Part shown: positions 19,432 through 49,874 of the stretch, one piece after another
Position numbering within the stretch: the first letter of the stretch is position 1
Layout of the letters: every line of letters starts with the position of its first letter
Assembly: GCF_005047655.1 (NCBI RefSeq)
Contig: NZ_SUKF01000003.1
Span: forward strand, 186,001-250,000
Origin: Sinimarinibacterium arenosum
Lineage (GTDB): Bacteria > Pseudomonadota > Gammaproteobacteria > Nevskiales > Nevskiaceae
Reading direction: 5' to 3'
Length of the DNA stretch: 64,000 bases
Position numbers and translations under genes: made by a program
Notes under the pieces: model-generated
Databases searched by the model: none
What the model saw: only the letters and a program-made list of their open reading frames with translations
Told to the model about the DNA's origin: nothing

Positions 19432-20760
19432 ATGGATGAACTGGCGGTCGCAAACGGACAGCACCTGATCGTCGCGTTGATGACGGGTGGCGGCGGGCTG
19501 ATCCTGTTCTGGACCGACCGGCGCAGCGCGCCCAGTCGGGCGCTGGCCTTGGGACTGGTGCTGATCGGAGTGCGCCTGCTGCTCAATGCCGACCAGCAGG
19601 GCGCCGAGCTTCCCCTTTGGCGGGTCGTGCTGCTGGCGCGCCTGGTCGAGTCCGCCGCAATCATCACCGGCATCGAGTGGGCGCGCCGAATCGGCCTGAC
19701 CGCCACTGACGCGCTGCGCCGCACGGTGCACTGGTTGTTTCGTGTCGCGCAGTTGCTCGTTCTCGTTTTTGCGCTGATGCAGGTTGGGTATCTGCTGTTG
19801 GCACCGGAGGCGGCAACCTCCGATATCGAAGGGCCGATCCGGGTGCGGGGCTACGAGTGGGCGCTGTTTGCGCCGGTTCTCGGCAGTGCCGCATTGCTGG
19901 CAGGCATCGCAATCGTGATCCTGCTGATCACGCGTACCGATCCGGTGGAATCTGTGCGGCTGCGTGCATTGCTGTTTGCATCCCCGCTGCTGCTGGCGGC
20001 GTTGGTTATCCGCGAAAGCTGGGTTCCGCTGGTGCTGTCAGCGGGACTGCTGGTGTTCCTTGCCGGCACGATCCGGTACCTGATCCTGCAATCGCAGCGC
20101 GCGCAATCCTTGAGTGAGTTTCTGTCCCCCGAGGTGGCTCGGCTGGTCAAACTGCGCGGTACCGATGTCGCGCTGCGCCGGGAGAAGCGGCGGATCAGCG
20201 CGGTGGTGTGCGACCTGCGCGGTTTTACCGCGTACGCAGACCGTCAGGATTCGGATACTGTGGTTGGCCTGCTGGAGCGGTACTACGCGGTGGTCGGTGA
20301 CGTTGCGGCTGCGCATGGGGGCATGGTCAAGGACCACGCTGGCGATGGGGTGCTGATTCTGGTCGGTGCGCCGGTGCCGCATCGGCGCCATGCACGGCGG
20401 GCACTGCGCCTCGCGCGTGAACTCAGCGAACGCGTCACCGCGCTGCTCGACGGGCAGACCGACGCGCTCGGGGTCGGGATCGGGGTGGCCAGCGGCGAAG
20501 TCACCGTCAGGGCGATCCAAGGCGGCGGGCGGCTGGAATACGTGGCCGTGGGCAGCGCGGTGAATCTTGCCGCGCGTCTGTGTCAGCGCGCCGGATCCGG
20601 CGAGGTCCTGGTCGACGCCGTCACCCTCGAGGAAGTGGAGCGATACGACGAGCGCCCCTGTTTGCAGCGGTTGCCGGATGAGCCGGTCAAGGGGTTCGAA
20701 ACGACCGTGATCGTGCACCGGCTGCTGCCGGACAGTGCCGAAATCGCGACGATCCGATAG
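19432..20760 (+). CDS. Membrane-anchored class III adenylate/guanylate cyclase
   Basis: A 442-residue protein with about six membrane helices (residues 1-215) and a C-terminal class III cyclase domain. Metal ligands are in VVCDLRGFTAY and HAGDGVLILVG; the transition-state pair Asn/Arg is in VGSAVNLAARL, so catalysis looks intact. No HAMP or PAS domain is evident. It is followed 72 bp later by a c-di-GMP enzyme, which suggests a cAMP/c-di-GMP signalling locus. The product (cAMP or cGMP) cannot be set from sequence alone. Confidence 0.92.
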   Translation: MDELAVANGQHLIVALMTGGGGLILFWTDRRSAPSRALALGLVLIGVRLLLNADQQGAELPLWRVVLLARLVESAAIITGIEWARRIGLTATDALRRTVHWLFRVAQLLVLVFALMQVGYLLLAPEAATSDIEGPIRVRGYEWALFAPVLGSAALLAGIAIVILLITRTDPVESVRLRALLFASPLLLAALVIRESWVPLVLSAGLLVFLAGTIRYLILQSQRAQSLSEFLSPEVARLVKLRGTDVALRREKRRISAVVCDLRGFTAYADRQDSDTVVGLLERYYAVVGDVAAAHGGMVKDHAGDGVLILVGAPVPHRRHARRALRLARELSERVTALLDGQTDALGVGIGVASGEVTVRAIQGGGRLEYVAVGSAVNLAARLCQRAGSGEVLVDAVTLEEVERYDERPCLQRLPDEPVKGFETTVIVHRLLPDSAEIATIR

Positions 20761-23800: not shown

Positions 23801-23985
23801 TGATCGCCGAAGGCGTGGAGACCGCAGCGCAACGCGACTATCTGCGTGCGCGCGGGTGCCATGAGGTGCAGGGCTTCATGTTCAGTCCCGGTGTGCCGGT
23901 CGCTGAATTCGCCCAGGTGGTTACGCGCATCGAGCGTTCCAACCCACAGCCCGCTGTGGCGCAGCCGGCCATCGTTCAATTCTGA
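20833..23985 (+). CDS. CHASE-PAS-PAS-GGDEF-EAL c-di-GMP enzyme
   Basis: A 1050-residue membrane sensor. A first membrane helix (about 8-25) leads to a periplasmic CHASE domain (about 40-290; ...YPGTQGLGYARWL), then a second helix (about 302-325), a PAS domain (about 350-465), a second PAS with PAC (about 480-605), GGDEF (about 610-775) and EAL (about 795-1035). The cyclase motif GGDEF is intact and is preceded by REGD, a product-inhibition I-site. The phosphodiesterase motif reads EALLRW and DDFGTGYSSL is complete, so both activities are possible. CHASE domains in other proteins bind cytokinin-like or small hydrophobic ligands; the ligand here is unknown. Confidence 0.95.
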   Translation: MNPVRSRFVGALALLAGLGLSTFAYRQVQLVEQETANRKFDARTAAVTDFIGERFFDYEQLLRAGVALFNTDSAVSRADWNRFVSTLQVTERYPGTQGLGYARWLRPEQVGDLVAQVRAEGYPEFELHPAGSRDHYGVIVYLEPFDLRNRRAFGYDMFSQSVRREAMQRAIDTGDASLTGRVTLVQETEVDQQAGTLLYLPVYAGGGVPATQEERRQSIIGFVYSPLRMNDLISGVLGHSFDDLKLRIVDSAESGDADLLFRSPNLTPSDLSPSTPRWTRTLKIGGHHWKVEAFPAQPLVTGWSRALLILLGGALISLLVAILLWSATGARDRAVALARSMTQALRRTQERQQAVLDSAVDAILTVNARMQISSANHAMARMFGRTVDDLRDTEITRLLPEFPTLMDDVQSPQTAQQSSPVRRETLGRRANDQEFPAEVTISPLSGEVDAEGGAVVVTIRDLTLIRQAQAALAAAHSLRESILSHAPFAVIAVDTDLRVAEINPAAEALLWYRKDELVGRGNLGWILGTDSADDGKTQSVIDNVLSPVRRGQVDEREWSYQRKDGSRVLVNQVVTALRDEVGAVTGFLVIAYDITERKRTEDYIRHLAHHDALTELPNRALCTDRLEVAMAQARRTAQKVGVLMIDLDHFKRINDSLGHHVGDELLIQVTSRLRHSVREGDTVARMGGDEFVVVLPGISDQEDALRVARTLVDVLPQPISVGAHELHVTPSVGVCLYPDDGADTITLLKNADTAMYHAKEHGRNRYSLFSQDMLRASESKMAMESALRRAIARKRLLLHYQPLVSLGDGEVTGMEALLRWPDDKGGFIPPDVFIPIAEETGLINQMADGLLGQACADAMLLSQQLARPLGIAVNISPKQFHNARLIDVVRSALQNSGLPPQLLTLEVTERMLIGDPADAAEVLRGLRHLGVGVAIDDFGTGYSSLAYISQFPISKLKIDRSFIRDLGEDTADTAVINAIIAMGRSMHLQVIAEGVETAAQRDYLRARGCHEVQGFMFSPGVPVAEFAQVVTRIERSNPQPAVAQPAIVQF

Positions 23986-24049: not shown

Positions 24050-27000
24050 TCAGTCGCTGTCCTTGCGATGAACGGCGGCGAACAGGGTCGGCAGCACCAG
24101 CAGGCTCAACAAGGTGGCCGAAAGGATGCCGCCGATCACGACAGTAGCCAGCGGACGCTGGACTTCGGCACCGGTGCCGGTGTTCAGCGCCATTGGCAGA
24201 AAGCCCAGCGACGCGACCAGTCCGATCATCAGAATCGGTCGCAGTCGCGTCAGCGAACCTTCAGTCACTGCATCGATCAGCGCGCTGTTCTGGGACAGCA
24301 GTTCGCGGAACATCGACACCAGCACGACGCCGCTGAGGACTGCCACGCCGGATAGCGTGATGAAGCCGACGCCGGCGGAGATCGACAGCGGAATGTCGCG
24401 CAACCACAGCGCCAGGATGCCCCCGGTCAAGGCCAGCGGTACGCCTGAGAACACCAGCAAGGCATCCTTGACCGAGGCGAACGTCAGGTAAAGCAGGCCG
24501 AAGATCATCAGCAGCGCGATCGGCACCACGATGGTCAGGCGTTGCGCCGCCGAAGTCAGCTGTTCGAAGGTGCCGCCCCAGGTCATGTAGTAGGCCGGCG
24601 GCAAGACCACGGCGCTGGCGACGCGGGTCTGCGCCTCGCCGACGAAGCCGCCGAGGTCGCGACCACGCACATTGGCCGTCACCACGATGCGGCGCTTGCC
24701 GTTCTCGCGCGAAATCTGGTTCGGCCCCAGGGTGCGTTCGACCCGCGCGACTTCGGACAGCGGTATGTAGCCGCCGCTGCCGTTCAGCAACAACGGCAGA
24801 CGTGCCAGTGCGGACGGATCAGTGCGTTGCGATTCGGGCAGGCGCACGACGACGTCGTAGCGCGCGTCGCCTTCGAAGATCTGCCCGGCTGGCTGGCCGC
24901 CAATGGCAACCGCCACCAGATCCTGAACCTCGGCAACGTTGACTCCATAGCGCGCCAGACGTTCGCGATCAGGCTCGACCGCGAGCATCGGCAGGCCGCT
25001 GGCCTGTTCGACCTTGACATCGGCAGCCCCGGGGACTGCAGTGATTTCAGCAGCGACGCGTCGCGCAACACGTTCCAGCGTGTCCAGATCATCGCCGAAG
25101 ATCTTGATCGCCAGATCGGCGCGGACGCCCGAGATCAGCTCGTTGAAACGCATCTGGATCGGTTGGGTGAAACCGTAGGACGCGCCCGGCACCGCATCGA
25201 CCGTGGCGGCCAGTTCCTCGATCAGCTGGGCTTTCGGCTTGGCCGGATCCGGCCATTCATGACGCGGCTTGATCATCACGAAGGTATCGGTCTCACCGGG
25301 AGACATCGGGTCAGTTGCCGCCTCGTTGGTGCCGGTGCGCGCGAACACTCTGGCGACTTCAGGCACGTTCATCAGCGCAGCGTTGACCCGGACCTGTTCG
25401 GTCACGGCCTGCTCAATGCCCACGCCCGGCACGCGGGTGGGCTGGATGATCAGATCGCCTTCATCGAGGTTGGGGATGAACTCGGTGCCCAGTCGCGTGG
25501 CCATCACCCCGCAGATCAGCACCAGCACGACCGCGCCGGTCAGGATCGGGGTCGGCCGGCGCAGCGACCAGGCCAGCGCCGGCGCGTAGATGCGCTTGGC
25601 GGAATGGACGATCAGGTTTTCCTTTTCAGAAATCGGACCGCGCAGCAGGATCGCGATCAGCGCGGGCACCATCGTCACCGACAGGAACAGCGCGGCAAGC
25701 AGTGCCATCACCACGGTCAGCGCCATCGGATGGAACATCTTTCCTTCGACACCGGTCAGCGCGAAGATCGGCAGGTTGACCAGCACGACCACCAGCACGC
25801 TCACCAAGCTGGGTCTGAACACTTCAGCTGTTGCCTCGTGCACGATCGACAGCCGATGGGCCAGCGACAACGGGCTGCTGACGCGATGCTGCTCGGCGCC
25901 CAGACGCAGGATGCAGTTCTCGACGATGATCACCGAACCGTCGACGATCAGGCCGAAGTCGAGCGCGCCCAGACTCATCAGATTACCGCTGACATTGGCG
26001 CCAACCATGCCGGTGAAAGTCATCAGCAACGACACCGGAATCACCAGCGCGGTCAGCAGCGCTGCGCGCAGATTGCCCAGCATCAGGAACAGCACGACAA
26101 CGACCAAGACCGCGCCTTCGATCAGGTTCTTCTGAACCGTGCCGACAGTCTTTTCGACCAAATCGGTACGGTTGTAAACCGTCAGCGCGCGTACGCCCTC
26201 GGGCAACTGCTGGCGAATCTCGTCGAGCTTCTCCGCAACACGGCGCGAGACAATGCGGCTGTTTTCTCCGATCAGCATGAATGCGGTCGACAGCACCGTT
26301 TCCTCGGTGCCCAGCTGGGCGGCGCCGGTGCGCAGGGGGCCGCCAATTTTTACCTCGCCAACGTCGGCGATGCGCACCGGGGTGCCGTCAACGGTTGCGA
26401 TGACGACGTTGCGAATGTCGTCAATGCTGCGCAGTTCTCCGGTCGTGCGCACCAGCAGTTGTTCGCCATTGCGCTCGATGTAGCCGGCGCCGCGGCTGGC
26501 GTTGTTTTCCTCCAGCGCCATCACCACGTCGTCGAGCTTGAGCCGGTGCGCCAGCAGCATCGTCGGGTCGGGCAGTACGTGATACTGCTTGACCACGCCG
26601 CCGATCGAGTCGACTTCAGTAACGCCGGCGGTCTGACGCAACTGCGGACGGATGATCCAGTCCTGGATACTGCGCAATGCGGTTGCGTCATAGGGACTGC
26701 CGTCGGCCTGGCGCGCATCGGCGTCAGCCGTCAGTGCGTACATGAAAATCTCGCCGAGTCCGGTCGCCACCGGGCCCAGAGTCGGTTCGATTCCGCCCGG
26801 CAGGCTGCCGCGCACTTCCTGCAGGCGCTGGTTGACCTGCTGTCGCGCAAAGTAAAGATCGGTACCGTCGGCGAAGACTGCCGTGACCTGCGACAGGCCG
26901 TACTTTGAAATCGAGCGGGTCTGACTGAGCCCAGGCAGGCCGCCCAGCGCGGTCTCGATCGGGAAAGTCACACGGCGTTCGGTTTCGAGCGGCGAATATC

Positions 27001-27163
27001 CGGGTGCACGTGTGGCAATCATCACCTGGACGTTGGTGATGTCGGGTACCGCGTCTACCGGCAGACGCTGATAGGCCAGTACGCCGATGATGCACAGGCC
27101 AAGCGTCATCGCCATCATCAGCCAGCGACGGGTGACGGCGAGGTGGAGGAGTCGTGTGATCAT
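24050..27163 (-). CDS. czcA: Heavy-metal efflux RND pump, CzcA type
   Basis: A 1037-residue inner-membrane proton antiporter, the pump subunit of a tripartite metal exporter. The membrane-helix-4 motif DFGLIVDGSVIIVEN keeps the two Asp and one Glu of the CzcA/HME1-3 class, which move divalent cations (Zn, Co, Cd or Ni) rather than the Cu(I)/Ag(I) of CusA. The N-terminal PVDAVPDITNVQV is another CzcA-type signature. The gene starts 4 bp after the adaptor gene stop and closes the operon. The likely metal is inferred from the motif class, not proven. Confidence 0.94.
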   Translation of the reverse strand: MITRLLHLAVTRRWLMMAMTLGLCIIGVLAYQRLPVDAVPDITNVQVMIATRAPGYSPLETERRVTFPIETALGGLPGLSQTRSISKYGLSQVTAVFADGTDLYFARQQVNQRLQEVRGSLPGGIEPTLGPVATGLGEIFMYALTADADARQADGSPYDATALRSIQDWIIRPQLRQTAGVTEVDSIGGVVKQYHVLPDPTMLLAHRLKLDDVVMALEENNASRGAGYIERNGEQLLVRTTGELRSIDDIRNVVIATVDGTPVRIADVGEVKIGGPLRTGAAQLGTEETVLSTAFMLIGENSRIVSRRVAEKLDEIRQQLPEGVRALTVYNRTDLVEKTVGTVQKNLIEGAVLVVVVLFLMLGNLRAALLTALVIPVSLLMTFTGMVGANVSGNLMSLGALDFGLIVDGSVIIVENCILRLGAEQHRVSSPLSLAHRLSIVHEATAEVFRPSLVSVLVVVLVNLPIFALTGVEGKMFHPMALTVVMALLAALFLSVTMVPALIAILLRGPISEKENLIVHSAKRIYAPALAWSLRRPTPILTGAVVLVLICGVMATRLGTEFIPNLDEGDLIIQPTRVPGVGIEQAVTEQVRVNAALMNVPEVARVFARTGTNEAATDPMSPGETDTFVMIKPRHEWPDPAKPKAQLIEELAATVDAVPGASYGFTQPIQMRFNELISGVRADLAIKIFGDDLDTLERVARRVAAEITAVPGAADVKVEQASGLPMLAVEPDRERLARYGVNVAEVQDLVAVAIGGQPAGQIFEGDARYDVVVRLPESQRTDPSALARLPLLLNGSGGYIPLSEVARVERTLGPNQISRENGKRRIVVTANVRGRDLGGFVGEAQTRVASAVVLPPAYYMTWGGTFEQLTSAAQRLTIVVPIALLMIFGLLYLTFASVKDALLVFSGVPLALTGGILALWLRDIPLSISAGVGFITLSGVAVLSGVVLVSMFRELLSQNSALIDAVTEGSLTRLRPILMIGLVASLGFLPMALNTGTGAEVQRPLATVVIGGILSATLLSLLVLPTLFAAVHRKDSD

Positions 27164-35936: not shown

Positions 35937-37310
35937 CTACAGCAACGCGTCCTCCAGCTCGTCGAGGCTGGTGGCAATGTAGTCGAGCATGCGCTGCACT
36001 CTCGGCACCGCCCGGCGGCAGGCGATCAGACCGAAATCCACGGCGTCGCCGCGGCTGATGATGGTGATATTCAGCGCCATCGTGTCGACCACCAGCGATG
36101 CCGGATACATGCCGTCCAGGCGGCAGCCTTGCCAGTACATCGGCTCGCGCGGTCCGGGAACATGCGAAATCACCAGATTGGCGATGAAATGCTTGGGGTC
36201 CAAGCGTGACAACCACATCAGGGCGCCAGGCAGCAGTTGGGCGACGCTGAATGCCTGCAGCTGGGCCGGCGACATTTCGCGAAAGCGCGCCTTGTTGTAG
36301 TCCATGCAGCCCTTGATCAGTAGCAGGCGCTCCACCGGGTCGCTCAGGTGCGTCGCCAGATTGGCCAGCGCGAAGGCAATTTCGTTGCCGCTGTCGCCAT
36401 CGTCGCGTCGTACCGAGACTGGCACAATGGAAACCAGGGGCTCGTCCGGCAGTGCGTCGAGGTCCGTCAGGTAGCGCCGCAGCGCTCCGGCGCATAGCGC
36501 GAGAATCACGTCGTTGAGCGTTCCGTGGACGGCATCGGCAACCGCGCGTATGCGGTCGGTCGGATACGACTGCGCGGCAAAGCGGCGTGACGCCGTGACC
36601 ATTTGGTTGAGGATGCAGCGTGGGGCCTGCACGCTGGTTGCCAGATATGGGTTATGCGCGCGGTAGTCGTGCCAAGTGTGCTGCAACTGTTTGACGAAGG
36701 TCGGTGTTGCGCGCACGCCGTTGCGTGCAAGGCTCGCGATCAGCCCCACAGGTCCCAGCGCAGCCGGTGCCGGCACCGCCAGCGTGGTTCCGGACCGCCG
36801 TGACGGAATCTCCCATGGCGCAGCCATCCGCATCGAACTTTCGCGATCGTTCGACATCGACTTCATGAACAACCGCAACGCAGCGATGCCATCGACCACT
36901 GCGTGATGGATCTTGAAGTAGAGCGCAATGCGGCCGTCTTCGAGACCTTCGACCAGATACATGCGCCACAGCGGATAGGCGCGATCCAGATGCGCGCTGT
37001 GGACGCGCGATACCATTGCCAGCAATTCGCGGATGCGGCCGGGCTTGGGCAGCGCCAGATGCACAAAGTGCTGGCCCAGATCGAACTCGCGCTCGGAGTC
37101 CCAGAAGCGAAAGCCGAAGCGGGTGTTGGGATGGCGGTCGAAGGGCGGCACCACGCCGGTCGATTCGCGCAGATGCGCGGCGATCTGGGCGGCAAAATCC
37201 GGAGGAGCGCCTTCAGGGGGTTCAAACAGGACCAGACCGCCCACATGCAGGGGCATGTGCCGTTGTTCGACCAGCAGGAACGCAGCGTCAATCGGGGACA
37301 GTCGCAGCAT
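35937..37310 (-). CDS. Wax ester synthase/diacylglycerol acyltransferase family protein
   Basis: A 457-residue WS/DGAT family enzyme that transfers acyl chains from acyl-CoA to alcohols or diacylglycerol, forming storage lipid. It has the catalytic HHAVVDG (residues 135-141), the N-terminal LSPIDAAFLLVE, and the C-terminal NLVISHVPGPREPMYWQG (PLW-type region). No signal peptide; such enzymes are peripheral membrane proteins. Convergent with acoR, only 3 bp apart. Substrate preference cannot be told. Confidence 0.94.
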   Translation of the reverse strand: MLRLSPIDAAFLLVEQRHMPLHVGGLVLFEPPEGAPPDFAAQIAAHLRESTGVVPPFDRHPNTRFGFRFWDSEREFDLGQHFVHLALPKPGRIRELLAMVSRVHSAHLDRAYPLWRMYLVEGLEDGRIALYFKIHHAVVDGIAALRLFMKSMSNDRESSMRMAAPWEIPSRRSGTTLAVPAPAALGPVGLIASLARNGVRATPTFVKQLQHTWHDYRAHNPYLATSVQAPRCILNQMVTASRRFAAQSYPTDRIRAVADAVHGTLNDVILALCAGALRRYLTDLDALPDEPLVSIVPVSVRRDDGDSGNEIAFALANLATHLSDPVERLLLIKGCMDYNKARFREMSPAQLQAFSVAQLLPGALMWLSRLDPKHFIANLVISHVPGPREPMYWQGCRLDGMYPASLVVDTMALNITIISRGDAVDFGLIACRRAVPRVQRMLDYIATSLDELEDALL

Positions 37311-37833: not shown

Positions 37834-39354
37834 TTAGGACGAGCAGCTGACGCTCAGGTGAGCTGCTTCGGGCGGGGGCTCCGCAGCATGGCTTTCGTAC
37901 TGTGGATGTTCGTCATAAGGATTTCGCAGCAGCGTCAACAGGCGTTCGATTTCACTGGCATCGCCACGCTGCGCGGCTTCGATCGCGGCCTGGGCAAGAT
38001 GATTGCGCAGGACAAATTTCGGGTTGACGGCGTTCATGCGCGCTCTGCGGGCGGCATCGTCGCCATCCTCCATTCGCAGACGCTGCCGATAGTCTTTCAG
38101 CCAGCCCTCCAGGGCAGCGCTGTCGTGCACGATGTCTGCCAGCTCGGTCGCACTTTCATCGTTGGCATTGACCGTCGCAAGCGCGCGGAAGCTGCGGGTG
38201 AAATCGCTGCGGCCGCGATGCAGAATCGAGACAAAGCGGTTGATCAGGGTCGGGTCGTCGCCGTGCGGTTCGCGGAGCCCCACTTTGCGGCGCCAGGCCG
38301 CGGTCATCGCCTCGGAATAGGCAGCCGGATAGCCGTCGACTAGCGCCTGGCCTATTTCCACCGCCTGATCGGGTGAGTCCGACAGCAGCGGCAGGCAGGC
38401 TTGAACCAGACGTGAGCAGTTCCAATGCCCCACGGTCGGCTGCTGGTCGTAGGCGTAGCGCCCGCCGGCATCGGTGTGATTGCAGATGTGTTTGGCGTTG
38501 AAGCCGTCGATGAAGCCGAACGGCCCGTAGTCCAGGGTCAGGCCGAGGATCGACATGTTGTCGGTATTCATCACGCCGTGGCAGAACCCCAGGGACTGCC
38601 ATTGTGCGATCAACTGGGCGGTGCGCCGGATCACTTCGCGCAGCCAGCGTTCGTAACGGTCCGGCCGCCCGGAAAGCTCGGGAAAGTGGGCGTCGATGAC
38701 GTGGTCGGCAAGCTCTCGCAACGCCTCGTGCTGATCGCGGTAGTAGAACACCTCAAAGTGACCAAAGCGGACATGGCTGGGGGCCACGCGGCAGATCACT
38801 GCCGCGGTTTCCAGTGTTTCACGCCGTACCGGATCATCGGCCGCGATCAGGCTCAACGCGCGTGTCGTCGGTACGCCCAGATGATGCAAGGCTTCGCCGC
38901 ACAGATACTCGCGCACACTGGAGCGCAGCACCGCGCGACCATCACCGAAGCGCGAGAACGGGGTCTTGCCGGCACCCTTGAGCTGGAGGTCCCAGCACTG
39001 CCCATCGGGCGCACGCAGTTGGCCCAGCAGGATCGCGCGACCGTCGCCGAGCTGAGGCACCCAGCCGCCGAACTGGTGGCCGGCGTACAGCATCGCGCGC
39101 GGATCACCGCCCGGCAGCGGGCGGTTGCCCGCCAGGATTTCGGTGAATTCCGGGCGCTCTGCCTCTGCCGGATCGATGCCGAGCTGGGCCAGCAGCGAGC
39201 GGTTGAGGTGCAGCAGGCGCGGAGCGGTGACGGGGGCGGGCTCGACGCGTGCTGAGAACACATCGCCCAGCCGGGCATAGGCGTTGTCCAGGGGTAGCGC
39301 GTCGATGCGGTATCCGCGCATCGCGTTGTCGGCAGTGTCTGAGGGCAGGGGCAT
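37834..39354 (-). CDS. selO: SelO/YdiU protein adenylyltransferase
   Basis: A 506-residue pseudokinase-fold enzyme that transfers AMP to protein hydroxyls during oxidative stress. It has AGHQFGGWVPQLGDGRAILL, RFGDGRAVLRSSVREY, GFCHGVMNTDNMSILG (catalytic-loop region) and DYGPFGFID (metal site). The protein ends SVSCSS, with Cys in the third-last position where eukaryotic SelO has selenocysteine. The start is the first ATG (29 bp from the divergent peptidase gene); a second Met at residue 12 is possible and would widen the gap. Confidence 0.93.
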   Translation of the reverse strand: MPLPSDTADNAMRGYRIDALPLDNAYARLGDVFSARVEPAPVTAPRLLHLNRSLLAQLGIDPAEAERPEFTEILAGNRPLPGGDPRAMLYAGHQFGGWVPQLGDGRAILLGQLRAPDGQCWDLQLKGAGKTPFSRFGDGRAVLRSSVREYLCGEALHHLGVPTTRALSLIAADDPVRRETLETAAVICRVAPSHVRFGHFEVFYYRDQHEALRELADHVIDAHFPELSGRPDRYERWLREVIRRTAQLIAQWQSLGFCHGVMNTDNMSILGLTLDYGPFGFIDGFNAKHICNHTDAGGRYAYDQQPTVGHWNCSRLVQACLPLLSDSPDQAVEIGQALVDGYPAAYSEAMTAAWRRKVGLREPHGDDPTLINRFVSILHRGRSDFTRSFRALATVNANDESATELADIVHDSAALEGWLKDYRQRLRMEDGDDAARRARMNAVNPKFVLRNHLAQAAIEAAQRGDASEIERLLTLLRNPYDEHPQYESHAAEPPPEAAHLSVSCSS

Positions 39355-40938: not shown

Positions 40939-41931
40939 CTAGACGCCCAGGCGTCCGCGCAGTTCCGCCGGGGTCAGATAGGGCGGCTGCGTCATCCCTT
41001 CCAGTTTTCTCACCAGGCTGACCAGCTCGGCGTTCACCGGAGTCGGCTTGCCATGCTCCAGGCCCAGGCGGACGATCTCGCCATTGAGCTGGTCGATTTC
41101 GGTGGTACGCCCGGCGTCGACGTCGGCAACCATCGAGGGATACGAGCCATCGCGCAGGCCGTTGCGCCAGCGCGCAAACCACCAGGGCAGCCGGGTGCGG
41201 CCCGCGATCAGACTCCGATACCAGCGGTAGGGTATCGGTGACGGCAACTGGTAGGTGATGCCGGCGTGTTCGAGCAGGCCGACGGCTTCGTCCAGCACGG
41301 CGGTGTAGATTGCGCGCAGATCCTGCTGTGTCAGCAGATCCTTGAACGTGGTGTGGGTCAGCGCGCCGATCGCGTTTGCCAGATTGATCAGCAGCTTGCC
41401 CCAGGCGGCCGCTTCGCCGGTCGTTCGGGTGACGTCCATGCCGCTGCCGACGAAGGCCCCGCACAGGCGCCCGGTTTCGCAATCGACCAGGATCTGTGGC
41501 CGCGTGGTGATGCGCGCATGCAGGGGTTCCAGCATCTGCCCGTTGAACATGACCGTCAGCGCGACGACGCGTGCTTGCGGCAGACGCTCGTGAATGCGAC
41601 GCAGCGCGCCGACGCCGTTGAGCGTGCAGACAATGGCGCAGCGCTGCGGAATCGGTGGAAGTGCGTCAAGCACGGTATCCAGGTCGCGAAATTTGACGCA
41701 CAGGAACAGGAAGTCAACGTCGTCCAGTGACAGCGACTGCGTCAGGATCGGCTTGGGTGCGACGATCGGCGGATGCCCGGCTCCCGCGTGCTCGACGCGC
41801 AGGTTCTGGACTGTCTGCAGAGTGGTCACATCCTTGTCGCGTACATAGAGCTTGACCGGCTCCCGTCGCACACTCATCAGATAGGTGGACAGGATCGTTC
41901 CCACGGCGCCAGCGCCGACGACCAGAATCAT
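40939..41931 (-). CDS. panE: 2-dehydropantoate 2-reductase (ketopantoate reductase) family
   Basis: A 330-residue NADPH-dependent reductase of the ApbA/PanE family, which makes pantoate for coenzyme A. The nucleotide fold ILVVGAGAVGTIL is at the N-terminus; LNGVGALRRIHERLP, VAALTVMFNG-like VVALTVMFNGQ and the C-terminal LPSPIPYRWYRSLI and YPSMVADVDAGRTTEIDQLNG (with the catalytic Lys/Glu region) follow. The start is preceded by GGGAG. No other pantothenate genes are nearby, so the exact substrate is only likely. Confidence 0.88.
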   Translation of the reverse strand: MILVVGAGAVGTILSTYLMSVRREPVKLYVRDKDVTTLQTVQNLRVEHAGAGHPPIVAPKPILTQSLSLDDVDFLFLCVKFRDLDTVLDALPPIPQRCAIVCTLNGVGALRRIHERLPQARVVALTVMFNGQMLEPLHARITTRPQILVDCETGRLCGAFVGSGMDVTRTTGEAAAWGKLLINLANAIGALTHTTFKDLLTQQDLRAIYTAVLDEAVGLLEHAGITYQLPSPIPYRWYRSLIAGRTRLPWWFARWRNGLRDGSYPSMVADVDAGRTTEIDQLNGEIVRLGLEHGKPTPVNAELVSLVRKLEGMTQPPYLTPAELRGRLGV

Positions 41932-42101
41932 CTGCAATTTCTCCCCGGGCCAGATGGCCCGCCCTTGCTCGCGAGGCCTCAAGCATAGCGCGGTATGTCG
42001 GAAGTATCCCCGTGCCGTCAGTCCTCGGGGAACGGATGCGTCGGGTTGCGCCGCGTGCTTCAATAGCTGCCTGCCAGCGCACGAGGAGAGTGACGGAGGC
42101 G

Positions 42102-45100
42102 ATGTCGACCGATTCGATCGAATGTCCGGCCTGCGCGCAGCGCAATCCCCAGGAAGCACGCTTCTGCAATCAGTGCGGCGCCCGGCTGCAGGCGCCTGCG
42201 GAAGGCGGCTATACGCCGCGTCATCTGGAGCAAACGATCCATCGCCCGGCGGCGGTGCAGGGTGAGCGCAAGCGCGTGACGGTGCTGTTCGCAGACATCA
42301 AGGGTTCGACGCGCCTCGCCGAGCAGGCCGGTGCGGAGTTGTGGCATCACATCCTGGACCGTTTCTTCGCGATCCTGGGCGCGGCGGTGCACCGCTACCA
42401 GGGCACGGTTAACCAGTACACCGGCGACGGCATCATGGCTCTGTTCGGCGCGCCGCAGGCGCTTGAAGACCATGCCGCGCATGCAGCGTTCGCCGCGCTC
42501 GACATGCAGCGTGAAGTGCGGCGCTATGCCGACGAGCTGCGTCTTCAGCACGGCATCAATCTTTCCCTGCGTGTTGGCTTGAACAGCGGTGATGTCGTTG
42601 TCGGCCGGATCGGTGACGATCTGCGCAGCGACTACACCGCGCAGGGGCCGACCGTGCATATGGCGGCGCGGATGGAGCAGATCTGTGAGCCGGGTCGGAT
42701 TTATGTCAGCACCCATACTGCCGGGTTGCTGGAAGGATCGTTTCGCCTGCGCAGCCTCGGCGCGACGCAGATCGCCGGTTTCGATGCGCCGGTCGCAGTC
42801 AGCGAACTGGAGGGGGTGGCCAATGGTCTGCGCACGCGGCTGGATCGCAGCTTGGCGCGATCCGGGGCGCCGCTGATCGGGCGTGAGCCGGAGATGCAGC
42901 AGCTGATGTCTGCGTTCGAGCGTGTGCGTCAGGGTGAGGGGCAGGTCGTGGCGGTGATCGGCAATGCCGGCATTGGCAAATCCAGGCTGTGTCGTGAATT
43001 TGTCGTCGCCTGCGAGCGCGAGGGCGTCGCGGTCCATCGAACCACTGGCGTGCCGTATGCCAGTCGCTTGCCGCTGCTGCCGATCCGGCACCTGCTGCGC
43101 AGCAAGCTGGGCGTGCCGGATGATGCGACGCCCGAAGATACACGGCGCTGGGTTGCTGGCGCACTGCTGCTGGAAGATCCGGCGAATGCCGCGGTTCTGC
43201 CGCATGTATTCGAATTTCTTGGCGTGCGCGAACAATTCGAGCAACAGCCGGAAACCCTGAACAGCGCGCGCGATCAGATGCTGGAACAACTGGCGGACTA
43301 CCTGCCATGCAGTGGCGAACCGACCATCCTGCTGGTCGAGGATCTGCACTTTCTCGATGCGGGCAGTGAAGCGTTCCTGGCGCACCTGTGTCGCAGCGTT
43401 GCGAGAAAGAATTGCCTGCTGCTGCTGAATTTCCGTCCCGACTACGCGTCGGAGTGGTTGCAGCCTCTGGTGCATGAATCGATTCCGCTGACGGCGCTGA
43501 ATGCGCAACATCTGTTGCAGCTGGCGCGGACGCTGTTGGGCGATGATCCCAGCATTGCCGAGGTGGCCGAGGTGGTTGCGCAACGTGCCGGCGGCAATCC
43601 CTATTTCGTCGAAGAGGCGGTGCTGGCGCTGGTCGACGGGGGCTGGCTGCAAGGCCAGTCGCGGGCGTGGAAGCTGGTTCGCGCAGTCGATGAGTGGCCG
43701 ATGCCCGATAGTGTGCAGGCGCTGCTGGCTGCACGAATCGACCGCCTGCCGGACGCGGCGCGCAGTCTGCTGCAGGCGGCCGCAGTGATTGGCCAGCAGT
43801 TTGATCAGGATCTGCTGCAGACGCTTGCGGGTGTCGATGCGGACCATGTCGCGGCACAGCTGGGGCTGCTTGAAGAGCTGGGATTTGTGCACACGCTCGA
43901 CGACGGCTTCGCGTTCTGTCATCCGCTGGTGCAGGAGGTGGCGTACCTGGGGCAGCTGGAAAGTCGGCGCCGTGCGGTGCATGCCCAGCTTGCCGAATTG
44001 CTGGAGCAACGCCATGGCCAGGACGACACCGCCAGCGAACTTTCGGTGCGGATCGCCGAGCATTGGCAGCGCGCCGGGGAATGGGTACGTGCCGGAAGCT
44101 GGAACCTGAAAGGCTTTCGCTGGGCGATGGTGCGGGATGCGGACCTGGCTCTGGATCAGTGCCGACGCGCGGTGATTCATTTTGACCGTGCTGCGGACAG
44201 TCCTGAAGTGGCGCGCGGCCGGGTTCTTGCCCGCGCCGCACTAATCCGGATGGCGCAGTTCGCCCAGATTCCGGCCGAAGAAATCGAACGCGCATGGCGC
44301 GACGCGCGAGCAATGGCGGAGGATGATTTGGCGGCTCAGGTCGAGCTGCAGATTTCCTACGGCAATGAACTGCTGCATCGCGGCCAGGTCGACGCCGCCG
44401 CACGCGTTCATCAGGAGGCTGCGCAGCGATGTCTAGACACCGGACAGGCTGCGCTGCTGAATCGGTTTCGCTTGGCGGTGCTGCTGTCCAGCAATGCGGC
44501 CGGGCAGGTGCGTAGCGGACTGGAGATTCTTGATCGCGCCGGGGGCGACTGGCGCCGCCGGCCGATCGATGAAGAAAATCATGCCTCGCGTGGCTTCTAC
44601 GGACTGATGCTGACCTGGCAGGGACGGCTGGATTTGGCGCGAGCCGAGCTGGACGGGGCCTTGGCATTCGCGGAAGCGCAGCAACAGCCGGTCAGCTGGA
44701 TGTATGCCAATCGCGTGGATTTTGGCTTGATCAGCGGCGATCTGAGCGGGATCGAGCAGTCGGCCTATCGCAGTCTGGAATATGCCCAGCAGCATGGCAG
44801 TCCGTTCTTCCGTTCGGTCGCATTGCGCGCGGTGGCGCTGGCGCATCTGCTGCACGGCAGGGCGCAGCCGGCGATCGATGCCTTGATGGAAGCACGGCCG
44901 ATGGTAGTTGCCGGCGCTCCCGCACACCAATTTGAGTCCAATCATCTGTCGACGCACGCGCTGGCGTTGTTGGTTGCGCAGCGCGACGGTGAGGCAGAAG
45001 ACATGGCGCTGCAGGCACGTGACAGTGCATTGCGCTCCGGTTCGCGCGTCTGGGAGATCATCGCACTGGTGGCGTGGCTGCGCCTGGAGCCGACTCCTCA

Positions 45101-45347
45101 GCGGCGGCAGCGGATCGCGGAAACCATGCAGCGCATGCAGTGGCTGGTTGACGATACCGGGGCGGAGGGATTCCGGCCCTGGCTGGAATTGGCTCGAGGC
45201 CATTGGACCACCGATCCCGCCGAGCGCGCCGCCGCGCATCTGCGCGCGCAGCGCGCGTTCGAGGCAATTGGAGCGCGTGCATATGCACGCCGTATCGCCG
45301 ACAAGCGCAGCGCCGAGCCTGAGGGCATGGGACAATCACTGCAGTGA
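42102..45347 (+). CDS. Zinc-ribbon / class III cyclase / AAA-type ATPase / TPR signalling protein
   Basis: A 1081-residue cytoplasmic multidomain protein. A zinc ribbon (Cys8, 11, 22, 25) precedes a class III cyclase domain (about 60-235) with VLFADIKGSTRL and GDGIMALFGAP. The usual transition-state Asn is His in TVHMAARMEQ, a variant common in this domain set. A STAND-like ATPase follows with Walker A GNAGIGKSRL (about 286) and Walker B ILLVEDLHFLD, then C-terminal TPR-like helical repeats (about 650-1060). It is the first gene of a probable three-gene unit: the next gene's leading frame starts with a GTG overlapping this stop by 4 bp, and its best ATG lies 35 bp after the stop. The likely input is a ligand sensed by TPRs or ATP-driven assembly. 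Confidence 0.92.
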   Translation: MSTDSIECPACAQRNPQEARFCNQCGARLQAPAEGGYTPRHLEQTIHRPAAVQGERKRVTVLFADIKGSTRLAEQAGAELWHHILDRFFAILGAAVHRYQGTVNQYTGDGIMALFGAPQALEDHAAHAAFAALDMQREVRRYADELRLQHGINLSLRVGLNSGDVVVGRIGDDLRSDYTAQGPTVHMAARMEQICEPGRIYVSTHTAGLLEGSFRLRSLGATQIAGFDAPVAVSELEGVANGLRTRLDRSLARSGAPLIGREPEMQQLMSAFERVRQGEGQVVAVIGNAGIGKSRLCREFVVACEREGVAVHRTTGVPYASRLPLLPIRHLLRSKLGVPDDATPEDTRRWVAGALLLEDPANAAVLPHVFEFLGVREQFEQQPETLNSARDQMLEQLADYLPCSGEPTILLVEDLHFLDAGSEAFLAHLCRSVARKNCLLLLNFRPDYASEWLQPLVHESIPLTALNAQHLLQLARTLLGDDPSIAEVAEVVAQRAGGNPYFVEEAVLALVDGGWLQGQSRAWKLVRAVDEWPMPDSVQALLAARIDRLPDAARSLLQAAAVIGQQFDQDLLQTLAGVDADHVAAQLGLLEELGFVHTLDDGFAFCHPLVQEVAYLGQLESRRRAVHAQLAELLEQRHGQDDTASELSVRIAEHWQRAGEWVRAGSWNLKGFRWAMVRDADLALDQCRRAVIHFDRAADSPEVARGRVLARAALIRMAQFAQIPAEEIERAWRDARAMAEDDLAAQVELQISYGNELLHRGQVDAAARVHQEAAQRCLDTGQAALLNRFRLAVLLSSNAAGQVRSGLEILDRAGGDWRRRPIDEENHASRGFYGLMLTWQGRLDLARAELDGALAFAEAQQQPVSWMYANRVDFGLISGDLSGIEQSAYRSLEYAQQHGSPFFRSVALRAVALAHLLHGRAQPAIDALMEARPMVVAGAPAHQFESNHLSTHALALLVAQRDGEAEDMALQARDSALRSGSRVWEIIALVAWLRLEPTPQRRQRIAETMQRMQWLVDDTGAEGFRPWLELARGHWTTDPAERAAAHLRAQRAFEAIGARAYARRIADKRSAEPEGMGQSLQ

Positions 45348-45382
45348 ATCGTGCCGGCGGGACCGGCCTTTGGGGGAAGATG

Positions 45383-46174
45383 ATGCGCATAAAACGAATC
45401 AGGACTGCCGTGGGCGCGCTGGCCTGTGCGCTGGCGGCGTGGTCGTCCACAGTCATGGCGGACGAGGCGCTCGACAGTGTCATCGGTTGCATGCGCGCGA
45501 ACATACCGAACACCGTGCAGATCAAGGAGGTCGAATTGATCTCCACTGACCGCGTGGGTGCCACGCGCACGCTGCGGGGCCGTTTGTACGGCACGCGCGA
45601 GGATGACCGCCTGCGCGCGATGATGAAGATCGGGTCGCCCGCCGATCTTGCCGGCGCGGCCTATCTGATGCGTGAGAAGGCGGAGGGCGACGAGATGTAC
45701 GTGTATGTCCCGGCGCTGCAGAAAGTTCGCCGCATCACCGGAGCCGGTGTTGATGGTGCATTGTGGGGGACGGACATTTCCTATGGCGACGTGCGCCAGC
45801 TCAACAATGCATTCACCTCCGGTCGCAGTGTCCTCGAAGGCGGCGGCGAACTCGGCGGGCGCAAGGTGCATCATCTGGCCGTGACGCCGGACCCGGCGGA
45901 AGCCTCCCGTTTCTCGATGGTCAAGGTCTGGGTTGATCAGCAGAGCTGTGTCAGCCTGCGCGCCGACTTCATGGAGGGTGGTTTGGTCGGCAAGCGGCTG
46001 GAGATCGATCCGGCCTCGCTGCGGCAGTCCGGTACCCACTGGTACGCGGGTGAAGCCTTGATGACTGACCTGAAAGAAGGCACGCAGACGCGCCTGAAAG
46101 TGTTGGGTCTGTCCAGCGACGTCAATCTGTCGGGGCGTTATTTCAATCCCAGCACGTTCTACCTGGGAAGCTGA
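45383..46174 (+). CDS. LolA-like outer-membrane lipoprotein-sorting protein
   Basis: A 263-residue periplasmic protein with a signal peptide (MRIKRIRTAVGALACALAAW, cut near MA|DEA) and the PF17131-type LolA-like beta barrel (GDEMYVYVPALQKVRRITG, the family's hallmark). Such proteins are paired with MMPL/RND exporters and are thought to carry a lipid through the periplasm. The chosen start is the second of two ATGs, 6 bp after GGGGG; a GTG at 45344 that overlaps the cyclase stop would add 13 residues. The RND gene follows 25 bp downstream. Confidence 0.9.
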   Translation: MRIKRIRTAVGALACALAAWSSTVMADEALDSVIGCMRANIPNTVQIKEVELISTDRVGATRTLRGRLYGTREDDRLRAMMKIGSPADLAGAAYLMREKAEGDEMYVYVPALQKVRRITGAGVDGALWGTDISYGDVRQLNNAFTSGRSVLEGGGELGGRKVHHLAVTPDPAEASRFSMVKVWVDQQSCVSLRADFMEGGLVGKRLEIDPASLRQSGTHWYAGEALMTDLKEGTQTRLKVLGLSSDVNLSGRYFNPSTFYLGS

Positions 46175-46199
46175 GCGGCAGCGCGTCCGCAGGAATTCG

Positions 46200-48917
46200 A
46201 TGCAGCGACTGATTCTCTGGCTGTCGTCTCATCCGCTGGTTGTCATCGCGGCGACCTTGCTGTTGTCGTTTGCAGCGGCGCTGTGCCTGATCGATCCGCG
46301 TGACGCGAGCCTGCGTCTCAAGGTCGATCCGTCGCTGGAGCGGCTGCTGCCGACGCAGGACGACGATCGAGCCCTGTTCGACCGGGTCCGCGCGCAGTTC
46401 GGTGAGACCGACCCGGTACTGCTCGCAGTCGGCTTTGACAATGTCTACACGCCGGACAGCATCGAAAAGATCGATGCGCTGACGCGCAAGCTCGGCGAGA
46501 TTGAGGGCGTGCGTCAGGTGATGTCGATCGCCAACGTTGCCAATCCGGTTGCCGATGATTTCGGTATCGACCTCAGCACCTTTGCCACGCAGGCACGCGT
46601 TCACCCCGAACGGGTCAAGGACTTTCCTGCGCAGGTCAACGACAATCCGATCTATCGCAATGCGCTGGTTTCGGCAGACGGCAAGGTTGCGGCATTTGCG
46701 TTGTCGCTCAACGGCGTCGATGAAAACCGTTTCCGGCGCGAGCATTACACGGACCGAATCCGCTCGCTGGCGGGTGAGGTCACAGGCTCTGACACCGTGT
46801 GGATCACCGGAAGTCCGGTGATCATGGCCGAGACCACCAACGCGATTCTGCGGGCGCAGAAATTCACCATTCCTGCGATCTTCGGCTTGGTGGTATTGCT
46901 GTTGTACATCGGCTTTCGCAGCGTGCGTGCCGTGCTGTTGTCGACCTTGACCATTGGCCTGGCGCTGTTGTGGACGATGGCATCGGCCGTGCTGATGGAT
47001 CTGCCGCTGAATCTGGTGACGGCACTGGTGCCGCCATTGGTGACAACCCTGTGTCTGTCGTACGCAGTGCATCTGCTGGCGGAATTCTACGAGCGGCACC
47101 ATCAGGATGGCGGCGCCTTGCGGCTAGAGCGTGTGTTCCGCCGAATGGGCGTCAGCCTGCTGTTATCCGGGGGCACCACGATTGCCGGCTTCATGGCGCT
47201 GGTGCCGGGCTCGCTGCCCGCGGTCGCGCAGTTCGCCGGTCTGTCGGCACTGGGTGTCGCGTTCTCAGTTCTGCTGACCCTGGTGTTTCTGCCGGCCATT
47301 CTGACCTACGCCGGACCGAAGCGGCCGCTCAGGATTCTGGGCGATGCGATGATGGCGCGAAAGGCGCGCAAGCTGGCCTTGTTTGATCTGAAGTGGCGGA
47401 ACTGGATCATCACCTTTGCGGTATTGTTGATTCCGATTGATCTGTATTTCGCCAGCAACATTCGCGTCGGCACCGAATACATCAAGAGCTTCGGTCCGGA
47501 TGCCACGGTCCGCCGCGACTACGAAGCGATCAACCGGGTCTTCGATGGCGCCAATCCGGTGGCTGTGGTGATCGAGACCTATGTCAACGATGCTTTGACC
47601 GATCCGGCGCTGATTCGCGAGATCGAAGGCCTGCAGAAATGGTTGCAGGCGCAGCCTGAAGTCGGCGCTGTGGTGTCCTATGTCGACCATCTGAAGTTGA
47701 TCAATCGCAATCTGAATGACGGTGATCCTGCCTACTATCGAGTGCCGACCGACGCTACCGCGGTGAAGCAGTTGCTGGTTTTTGGTGGCAGCGACGAAAT
47801 CCGGCGACTGATCGATTCCCGCTTTCGCACGTCCATGATCGCAGTACGGATCAAGGTGGACAGCTCGATACAGATTGCGGATTTCGTGCAGCGCACCGAG
47901 GCGCGCCTGCGCGAGATGCCGCCGCCGCTGAACGGCCGCGTGACCGGAAGTCCGGTCCTGGCAACGCGCACCGTCAATGAAATCGCTTCGGGGCAGCTGA
48001 CGTCGCTGCTGGTGGCTTTTGGTGCGATCTGGGCAATGCTCGCGCTGATGTTCACTTCGGCCCGATCGGCATTGCTGGCGATGCTGCCGAACATTCTCCC
48101 GGTCGGTGTCTACTTCGGCACCCTGGGCTTGCTTGATATCTCGCTCAATCCTACGACCAGTCTGATTGCCTGCGTGGTGCTCGGCATTGCGGTGGATGAC
48201 ACGATTCATTTTCTTGCGCGCCTGAATACCGATGCGCGCGCCAAGGGCAATGAGAAAGCGGCGGTCAAGAGCGCACTGTCGGCAGTGCTGCGACCAGTGA
48301 CGTTCACGATGATCGCGCTGTGTCTGGGATTTCTGATTTTCACCGGCAGCGAGTTGCAGAACCAGGTGCAGTTCGGTGCGTTGGCGGCGTTCACGATCTT
48401 TGTCGCTTGGTTGGCCGACATCACGTTGACGCCCGCTTTGGGATCGAAGCTGCGCATTGTCACCTTGTGGGACATCCTGCGCCTGGATCTGGGCCAGTCG
48501 CCGCAGCATACGATTCCGCTGTTGTCGGGCCTGAGTCTGCGCCAGGCGCGAGTGTTCGCGCTGATGTCCAAGCTGGAGCACCACAAAGTCGGCGAGCGCA
48601 TCATTCAGCATGGCGACTATGCGCGCGACATCTATGTGGTGATCGACGGCGTGCTGCAGGTCTGGGTTGACCGCGGCGGCGAACGCAAAACCTTGTCCAC
48701 GCTGCAGCGCGGCGCTGTGATGGGGGAAACCGGATATTTCGGACAGCGCCGCACCGCCAATGTCGACGCGCAAACGCCGGTGCGTCTGCTGCGTTTCGAT
48801 TCCCAGGATCTCGAGCGATTGCGTCAGCGCTATCCGCGCATTGCCGCGGTGATCTATCGCAATCTGAATCGGATTCAGGCTGAACGGCTGGCGCGTGCGA
48901 CAGCAATGCTGCAGTAG
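46200..48917 (+). CDS. RND/MMPL exporter with C-terminal cyclic-nucleotide-binding domain
   Basis: A 905-residue inner-membrane RND-superfamily exporter. Two homologous halves each carry a large periplasmic loop and a bundle of helices, with TGSPVIMAETTNAI and TGSPVLATRTVNEI in equivalent places. The proton-relay region reads LGIAVDDTIHFLARL. After the last helix (LADITLTPALGSKL) a soluble domain of about 130 residues matches the CAP/CNMP-binding fold: KVGERIIQHGDYARDIYVVIDG and the phosphate cassette VMGETGYFGQRRTANV with Gly-Glu and Arg in place. The frame is continuous, so the fusion is real. Export of a lipid-like substrate to the LolA-like partner and gating by a cyclic nucleotide made by the cyclase are inferred. 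Confidence 0.93.
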   Translation: MQRLILWLSSHPLVVIAATLLLSFAAALCLIDPRDASLRLKVDPSLERLLPTQDDDRALFDRVRAQFGETDPVLLAVGFDNVYTPDSIEKIDALTRKLGEIEGVRQVMSIANVANPVADDFGIDLSTFATQARVHPERVKDFPAQVNDNPIYRNALVSADGKVAAFALSLNGVDENRFRREHYTDRIRSLAGEVTGSDTVWITGSPVIMAETTNAILRAQKFTIPAIFGLVVLLLYIGFRSVRAVLLSTLTIGLALLWTMASAVLMDLPLNLVTALVPPLVTTLCLSYAVHLLAEFYERHHQDGGALRLERVFRRMGVSLLLSGGTTIAGFMALVPGSLPAVAQFAGLSALGVAFSVLLTLVFLPAILTYAGPKRPLRILGDAMMARKARKLALFDLKWRNWIITFAVLLIPIDLYFASNIRVGTEYIKSFGPDATVRRDYEAINRVFDGANPVAVVIETYVNDALTDPALIREIEGLQKWLQAQPEVGAVVSYVDHLKLINRNLNDGDPAYYRVPTDATAVKQLLVFGGSDEIRRLIDSRFRTSMIAVRIKVDSSIQIADFVQRTEARLREMPPPLNGRVTGSPVLATRTVNEIASGQLTSLLVAFGAIWAMLALMFTSARSALLAMLPNILPVGVYFGTLGLLDISLNPTTSLIACVVLGIAVDDTIHFLARLNTDARAKGNEKAAVKSALSAVLRPVTFTMIALCLGFLIFTGSELQNQVQFGALAAFTIFVAWLADITLTPALGSKLRIVTLWDILRLDLGQSPQHTIPLLSGLSLRQARVFALMSKLEHHKVGERIIQHGDYARDIYVVIDGVLQVWVDRGGERKTLSTLQRGAVMGETGYFGQRRTANVDAQTPVRLLRFDSQDLERLRQRYPRIAAVIYRNLNRIQAERLARATAMLQ

Positions 48918-49005
48918 TCAAGCTACCCGGGCGTGTAGCGTCTCTGTGGCCCGGGTCGGCCATAATTCAGGCGGCCGACGTCCTGTGCGACGAGGAGAGC
49001 AATTC

Positions 49006-49026
49006 ATGAACAAGGAAATCCAATGA
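49006..49026 (+). other. Six-codon mini-cistron before the SDR gene
   Basis: ATG AAC AAG GAA ATC CAA TGA follows a strong GAGGAG and its stop overlaps the SDR start (ATGA). The SDR's own start has AAGGA inside this mini-ORF. It may feed ribosomes to the SDR by coupling, or the strong Shine-Dalgarno could simply serve the SDR start. Confidence 0.4.
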
Positions 49027-49874
49027 GTCTGAAGAACAAGACGCTGTTCATCACCGGTGGATCGCGTGGTATTGGTGAGGCGATCGCCCTGCGTGCTGCG
49101 CGCGATGGCGCCAACGTGGTCATTGCGGCCAAGACGGGCGAGCCGCACGCGAAATTGCCCGGGACGATTTATTCGGTCGCCGAGGCGATTGAACAGGCTG
49201 GCGGCAAGGCGCTGCCCCTGCTGTGCGATATCCGCGATGAAGTACAGGTGAAGTCTGCCGTTGAAAAGACGGTGGAAACCTTCGGTGGGATCGACATCCT
49301 GGTCAACAATGCCAGCGCGATCGGCCTGACTGGAACTTTACAGACGGACATGAAGCGCTACGATCTGATGAACGGGATCAATGCGCGCGGCACTTTCATG
49401 ACCGGCAAGTACTGCATTCCGCATCTGAAGAAGGCAGTCAATCCGCACATCCTGACCTTGTCGCCACCGCTGGACTTTCAGGCCAAGTGGTTTGCGCCCC
49501 ATGTTGCCTATTCAATCGCCAAGTACGGCATGAGCCTGTGCACTCTGGCCTGGGCGCAGGAGTTCCGTAAGGAGGGCATTGCTGCGAATTCGCTGTGGCC
49601 GCGCACGACCATTGCCACCGCTGCGATTACCCTGGTCGGTGGCGACGCGGTGACCCGGATTTCGCGTACGCCGGCGATCATGGCCGATGCCGCGCACGCA
49701 ATCCTGTGCAAGTCCTCGCGCGAGTTCACCGGCCAGTTCTGCATTGATGAGTATGTGCTCAAGGATGCCGGCATCAACGATTTCTCCGGCTATGCTGCAG
49801 TGCCGGGCACGCCCGATAGCGCCATCGCGCCGGACTTGTTCCTGCCGGATGGCCTTCCGCCAATCGGCGGCTGA
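49023..49874 (+). CDS. Short-chain dehydrogenase, HSDL2-like
   Basis: A 283-residue SDR of the hydroxysteroid-dehydrogenase-like-2 type. It has TGGSRGIG (NADP binding), NNASAI, catalytic Ser in [10 protein letters not shown] and YSIAK (Tyr-x3-Lys). The typical HSDL2 insertion [17 protein letters not shown] follows the first strand. The C-terminal sterol-carrier domain of eukaryotic HSDL2 is absent. It probably acts on a fatty-acyl or steroid-like substrate. It lies 105 bp after the RND gene on the same strand; co-transcription is possible but not certain. Confidence 0.93.

Follow-up and report, generated by a model that had tools for sequence, protein, structure and literature searches.

The window, the whole 64,000-nucleotide stretch analysed here, comes from a genome of 4.54 Mb and carries on its forward strand three consecutive genes, assigned from the ORF list and Pfam, for a cyclase protein, a LolA-like protein and a membrane pump. 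Starting from the 5′ end, the first gene (42102-45347, +) encodes a protein with a weakly zinc-ribbon-like N terminus, a class III cyclase domain (about 42267-42779), a STAND-like AAA_16 ATPase (about 42870-43421) and a long C-terminal region that is TPR-like in relatives. The second (45380-46174, +) encodes a LolA-like periplasmic protein with a signal-like N terminus, and the third (46200-48917, +) an RND/MMPL pump fused to a C-terminal cyclic-nucleotide-binding (CNB) domain. A linker picked out by alignment conservation (48447-48569; VTLWDxLRLDLGxxPQxxIPLL...ARxFAL) leads from the last membrane helix to the barrel of the CNB domain (PF00027, 48579-48833), which contains the phosphate-binding cassette GETGYFGQRRTA (48723-48758) with residues E843 and R851. 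An ApbA/PanE-type reductase-like gene (40939-41931, -) forms a conserved divergent neighbour upstream, and an SDR oxidoreductase gene (NCBIfam NF006133; 49023-49874, +) is the conserved downstream neighbour, with a GreA/GreB-like gene next.

A sequence-only reading of this DNA had described three consecutive same-strand genes with minimal gaps; the ORFs are all real, and the gaps measure 32 and 25 bases. The overlap that it saw between the cyclase stop and a GTG of the next frame also exists: the stop codon occupies 45345-45347, and GTG 45344, the mechanical first start of the LolA-like ORF, runs into it. The start of the LolA-like gene is, however, more likely ATG 45380, which lies directly 3′ of TTTGGGGGAAG and has a better ribosome-binding site, so that GTG 45344 is unlikely to be the true start; the 32-base gap behind the cyclase stop follows from this placement. 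Plausible ribosome-binding sites are also found at the cyclase ATG 42102 and the pump ATG 46200. A search for sigma-70-like promoters from 41800 to 49200 on both strands gave zero matches and is uninformative.

The pump and its CNB domain

The pump belongs to the RND/MMPL superfamily (PF03176, 3.9e-37), and in an uninterrupted frame continues into the CNB domain, just as the earlier reading had it. The second protein, which that reading called LolA-like, belongs to PF17131 (8.5e-32, score 110.7 against a gathering cut-off of 30). An AlphaFold model of the pump built from a 19-sequence input has a mean pLDDT of 85.9, and its top Foldseek matches are MmpL5, MmpL4, MmpL3, NPC1/NPC1L1 and HpnN, with identities of 13-16% among the matches listed. 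Given these best matches to the predicted fold, the most economical reading places it among the lipid-handling RND proteins. Among named NCBIfam groups, neither the HpnN equivalog (TIGR03480, score 119 against a cut-off of 751.85) nor the HAE3 subfamily (207.9 against 351.9) accepts it. The nearest named relatives are pumps of Fontimonas thermophila (78%), a Nevskiales MAG (76%) and Sinimarinibacterium flocculans (74%).

Conservation was followed in 105 pumps, 87 placed by tblastn and 18 from a phylum-wide search. Position D666 is Asp in 92 of them and D667 in 88; these acidic membrane residues are candidates for the proton relay. In the first half of the pump, positions 285-288 are Asp in none of the 87. 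The cargo is probably lipid-like, by analogy with the two protein families involved. Elsewhere in the window lie a wax ester synthase/DGAT gene (35937-37310, -; PF03007, 3.2e-62) and, close by, a SelO gene (37834-39354, -). The WS/DGAT gene was set aside as a hint to the cargo: in the neighbour listing, which is imperfect, that label falls on no gene.

By score and predicted fold, the pump carries a CNB domain (cNMP_binding, residues 794-878, 4e-17, 62.4 bits against a cut-off of 27.5). Modelled alone, the domain takes a CNB fold with a mean pLDDT of 87.6, and its best Foldseek matches are mostly cyclic-nucleotide binders, namely Thermus thermophilus CAP, Mycobacterium tuberculosis CRP, PKG, GlxR and SthK, with HCN also among the matches. 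The non-binding homologues AKT1 and EAG1 appear there too; EAG1 is non-binding by its entry title, and AKT1 to our knowledge binds no cyclic nucleotide.

In canonical CNB domains the cassette glutamate holds the ribose. The cassette arginine holds the cyclic phosphate (PMC2246266). The window pump reads GETGYFGQRRTANV in this segment, and the two residues are each kept in 103 of the 105 pumps (85/87 in the first set, 18/18 in the phylum-wide set). The exceptions are L151 and L161, which lost the Glu, and L162 and L168, in which the Arg is His; these come from three Myxococcota/Deltaproteobacteria bins and one unclassified bin, and 0/4 are cyclase-linked, two having no cyclase and two too little flank. 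The E-to-R spacing is 8 in the window pump's group and in the paralogous pump L115, 9 in the distant pumps of the phylum-wide set, and 9 or 10 in four other CNB proteins of the same genome (L108, L109, L113 and L116; the cassette pattern matched 4 of the 8 CNB loci of the genome other than its two pumps). The window group's cassette is therefore one residue shorter than in most CNB domains compared (8 against 9), and a pocket that is kept yet slightly altered in sequence may bear on the choice of ligand.

These features could also belong to a CNB-homology domain without affinity for cyclic nucleotides, or with another ligand, that serves in assembly or intrinsic gating. The short cassette, the four copies lacking Glu or Arg and the fold matches to AKT1 and EAG1 lean in that direction. 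Precedents are on record: the CNB scaffold senses other ligands too (PMC2246266), and some CNB domains are not gated by cyclic nucleotides or bind nucleosides (PMC6052114, PMC10959531). Yet the near-universal retention of Glu and Arg differs from FixK, FNR and several further families, which have altered cassettes in a table of PMC2246266, and we consider such a ligand-free or repurposed domain improbable.

The linker before the CNB domain looks as a coupling element would. It ranks with the best-conserved parts of the pump, with W757, D758, L760 and R761 invariant in 19 diverse members; in the distant pumps the Trp and Asp are not retained, W757 being Trp in 1/18 and D758 Asp in 8/18.

Distribution of the gene set across genomes

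By a hand tally of search tables, 52 of 58 family genomes contain the CNB-pump, counted where a match extends over its CNB part. The main-type cyclase gene is linked to the pump in 15 of those 52, sits on a different contig in 11 (where contig breaks are possible), is unplaced in 1 and was not found in 25, of which 3 have a 35% homologue elsewhere. The unplaced case is G057, whose cyclase match is a fragment at the edge of a contig. In two of the 15 linked genomes (G015 and G026), 1.3-1.9 kb separates the cyclase from the LolA-like gene. G056 has only a pump fragment, and five genomes have neither pump nor fragment; one of these five (87% complete) has the cyclase. The linked set of three genes also occurs in families f2, f4, f5 and f6 of the order, and the f3 pumps (L099, L104) have no linked cyclase. 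The proposal that the neighbourhood recurs in relatives is borne out by these 15 family genomes and four further families. Beyond the family, relatives of the CNB-pump are found in Salinisphaerales, Myxococcota and other classes.

Many family loci share the same flank order: divergent ApbA/PanE-type gene, cyclase where present, LolA-like gene, pump, SDR gene, GreA/GreB-like gene. In family loci that have both neighbours, the cyclase sits between the ApbA/PanE-type and LolA-like genes. The LolA-like gene adjoins the pump in 33 of 37 first-round loci. From a phylum-wide sample of 299 genomes, 18 full-length CNB-pumps of another class were taken; 15 have a LolA-like neighbour, on the same strand as the pump in 14. 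With a model made from the window family and some flanks short, 17 of these 18 showed no cyclase in the flank; the exception, L205, has one on the opposite strand.

The 87 pumps were kept from 118 candidates (117 loci plus the window) after removal of 21 duplicates and 10 further entries, nine of them too short (L144, L152, L163, L187, L189, L190, L192, L196 and L197) and one, L191, two pumps merged. Three of the short ones, L192, L196 and L197, may be pumps without the CNB domain, since they match only to residue 751-784. L144 lies on a contig titled Verrucomicrobia, is 63% identical to the window pump and has Nevskiaceae-type SDR and GreA/GreB neighbours; it is probably mis-binned.

Where the flank is known, a cyclase lies at most 5 kb from the pump in 24 of 74 loci, and 50 have none; 13 of the 87 rows were left out for too little flank, and one of the 24, L150, sits at a contig edge that leaves only the C-terminal part of its cyclase. 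On a quick tree of the pumps with several long branches, linkage changes 14 times among the 74 labelled loci, and the cyclase resembles a module with a set position, gained or lost many times. The window genome itself has a paralogous LolA-like and CNB-pump pair (L068, contig C21, 7622-11271), whose pump is 42% identical, has Met after the cassette Arg and is adjoined by an OmpA-family gene; no cyclase lies nearby in this flank. The genome has 8 class III cyclases, and 14 CNB matches, 13 above the cut-off. The low linkage, the single case among the 18 other-class pumps, the paralogue without a cyclase and the eight cyclases of the genome together make the CNB-pump the core and a private cyclase optional, as far as gene neighbourhoods tell. 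The idea of one operon that encodes the whole circuit is not supported by these counts: the cyclase is missing or unlinked in most loci and is no obligatory part, and with so many cyclases and CNB domains in one genome the messenger need not be local.

The cyclase and its association with the pump

The first protein had been read as zinc ribbon, cyclase, ATPase and TPR repeats. Its cyclase domain (Guanylate_cyc, 1.6e-24, 86.9 against a cut-off of 21.9) and its ATPase (AAA_16, 2.1e-22) stand above the Pfam cut-offs, but the zinc-ribbon models (5.9e-5 and weaker) all fall under their curated cut-offs; the relatives L184 and L170 gave TPR/MalT-like repeat calls, the window copy none at E <= 0.01. 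By phmmer the closest solved cyclase domain is that of CyaB (3r5g, 1.2e-26). Numbered from base 42099, the metal-binding pair D66 and D110, together with R191, is present in 19/19 aligned cyclases, as is the active-site Thr. The Lys position is Gln in 19/19 linked cyclases (Gln106 in the window copy), and the Asn position is Asn in 11, His in 5 including the window copy (His187), Gly in 2 and Ser in 1. We take these to be the purine-selecting and transition-state positions, neither of which is presumably universal in class III cyclases. The cyclase is likely, though not certainly, active, on either ATP or GTP.

One could also see the protein as chiefly a scaffold or sensor built on its STAND-type ATPase, the cyclase domain being poorly active. 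The His in place of Asn in the window copy, the Gln in place of Lys in all copies and the conserved P-loop region are in keeping with that; a dead domain, however, would not need the metal Asp pair, Thr and Arg that all 19 copies keep, and we regard such a role as unlikely. A second class III cyclase gene lies in the window at 19432-20760 (+; 442 aa, PF00211, 2.4e-10), with a gene for a CHASE-PAS-GGDEF-EAL protein (20833-23985, +) directly downstream and an AcrB-type pump gene next.

As for a cyclase that makes the pump's messenger, two rearranged loci are informative. In L170, a gammaproteobacterial MAG, the LolA-like gene and the CNB-pump are followed by a cyclase-ATPase-TPR gene whose start codon and the pump's stop codon form a 4-base overlap (ATGA). 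This cyclase is far from the main family, with a domain score of 136 against at least 266 for main-type copies and a very long branch, and the search patterns resolved none of its catalytic motifs. In L184, another gammaproteobacterial MAG, the LolA-like gene and the pump are followed by three tandem cyclases, the third incomplete at the end of the sequence stretch. PrkA, DUF444 and SpoVR genes lie upstream in L184 (2155-18620), on the same strand. L170 and L184 are independent REARRANGEMENTS, with the cyclase downstream of the pump and the order changed. Because the cyclase stands on the other side in both, their arrangement favours function over an inherited neighbourhood. If genomes hold about 8 cyclases, as here, an unrelated cyclase is by our estimate the next same-strand gene in roughly 1 of 1000 loci, so two such cases among some tens of non-family loci are unlikely by chance. 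Tandem pairs of cyclases occur upstream of the pump in L090 and L093.

Cyclase and pump divergence correlate across 20 linked loci (Mantel r 0.93, a value reached in 0 of 2000 permutations; the tandem cyclase L090b, mis-cut to 22 residues, was left out), which fits co-inheritance as well as co-adaptation. In the source genome no CNB-less pump match among those listed lies within 80 kb of its class III cyclases. Another cyclase gene stands on the opposite strand about 3.3 kb away from the window's AcrB-type pump (24050-27163, -), and nearness alone is therefore no proof. Additional cyclases in flanks outside the main family (L093 and its copy L165, L098 and its copy L172, L100, L155 and L205) were not counted as support; 2 to 3 are expected by chance, an estimate from 8 cyclases per 4.5 Mb and about 87 loci of 16 kb. 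In L155 (1619-5965), CHASE2-cyclase, DUF928 and patatin-like genes precede a deltaproteobacterial LolA-like/CNB-pump pair by a few kb.

The pump could instead draw on a global pool of cyclic nucleotide, with the neighbouring cyclase serving another target and being merely co-located or co-expressed. That the pump without a linked cyclase is the commoner state and that the genome has eight class III cyclases accord with a shared pool, as does the pocket, whose two residues are kept in 24/24 cyclase-linked pumps and also in 59 of the other 63, which have no linked cyclase or a flank that is not covered. A mere bystander is harder to reconcile with a cyclase that lies on either side of the pump by lineage, with the ATGA overlap of L170 and the three copies of L184, or with the tandem pairs of L090 and L093; we hold a pool-only explanation to be rather less than likely.

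A possible mechanism and known counterparts

From the domains, the gene order and its recurrence, the conserved pocket and the predicted folds, we infer a regulated exporter. The LolA-like protein and the RND pump would together provide a lipid-like cargo with an export route in the envelope, the pump extracting it from the inner membrane by proton-motive force and passing it to the periplasmic LolA-like carrier. The cytosolic CNB domain of the pump would bind a cyclic nucleotide, most likely cAMP, and would set pump activity through the conserved linker. A neighbouring sAC-like protein, composed of zinc ribbon, cyclase, STAND ATPase and repeats, could make the messenger near the pump upon some cue, and at loci that have no such neighbour other cellular cyclases would supply it. 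We put the probability of this reading, in which a cyclic nucleotide sets a lipid-type exporter allosterically and often, though not necessarily, comes from a local sAC-like cyclase, at roughly 0.55.

Descriptions of cAMP in bacteria mostly concern its role in transcription, through CRP. A self-contained bacterial second-messenger circuit, in which a sAC-like cyclase beside a CNB-bearing RND pump throws a post-translational switch of lipid export in place of CRP-type transcription, convergent with the sperm pair of sAC and SLC9C1, is a tentative possibility. The observation that started this work is confirmed and the circuit partly supported. The strongest new point is that a cyclic-nucleotide cassette is retained across a widespread RND pump family and that sAC-like cyclases stand repeatedly beside it, in rearranged orders. 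The genera Solimonas, Fontimonas, Sinimarinibacterium and Hydrocarboniphaga hold the system. A conserved pump family with an intact cassette would open direct messenger control of lipid export to tests in these genera and lend RND pumps a regulated mode.

Our search of the open-access literature, which leaves out most subscription papers and is weak evidence of absence, found no RND/MMPL pump with a CNB domain, either with strict terms or among the titles listed for looser ones, and gave no match for sAC-like bacterial architectures. MmpL3/4/5 and HpnN share the domain and fold with the window pump, and several have a role in envelope lipid transport by their entry titles, but identity is as low as given above and the entries seen indicate no CNB domain in them. 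TOMM_kin_cyc (TIGR03903) aligns with residues 52-716 of the cyclase protein, its cyclase and ATPase region; the score of 239.1 against a cut-off of 705.75, and the absence of any kinase domain call in the protein, set the two apart, and the assignment was rejected.

For MMPL together with LolA-like domains there is a precedent in hydrocarbon growth, TOL_3187 of Thalassolituus oleivorans, which was 42-fold up on the n-C28 alkane (PMC6304351). There, however, both parts form one fused protein, and the text of that article does not contain the term cyclic nucleotide. CNB domains as allosteric modules on membrane proteins are also known from bacterial fusions, including mechanosensitive channels, AAA/ABC-like proteins and HisK, collected by Kannan et al. 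2007 (PMC2246266); an RND/MMPL class is absent from the 30 families of its Table 1.

The closest parallel comes from sperm. Soluble adenylyl cyclase (sAC) has a cyclase-ATPase-repeat architecture. SLC9C1, a CNBD-bearing sperm Na+/H+ exchanger, is modulated by cAMP, with cited evidence for a physical interaction with sAC, and replacement of the cassette arginine (R1053Q) abolishes the cAMP effect (PMC6052114). On our reading the two systems would share the scheme of a secondary transporter with a CNB domain and a soluble adenylyl cyclase partner. SLC9C1 belongs to an unrelated transporter family, is eukaryotic and has its own voltage sensor, whereas the window system pairs an RND pump and a LolA-like carrier. 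If our reading is right, the window system would work like SLC9C1, and because the two transporters are unrelated, the likeness would be a convergence of design.
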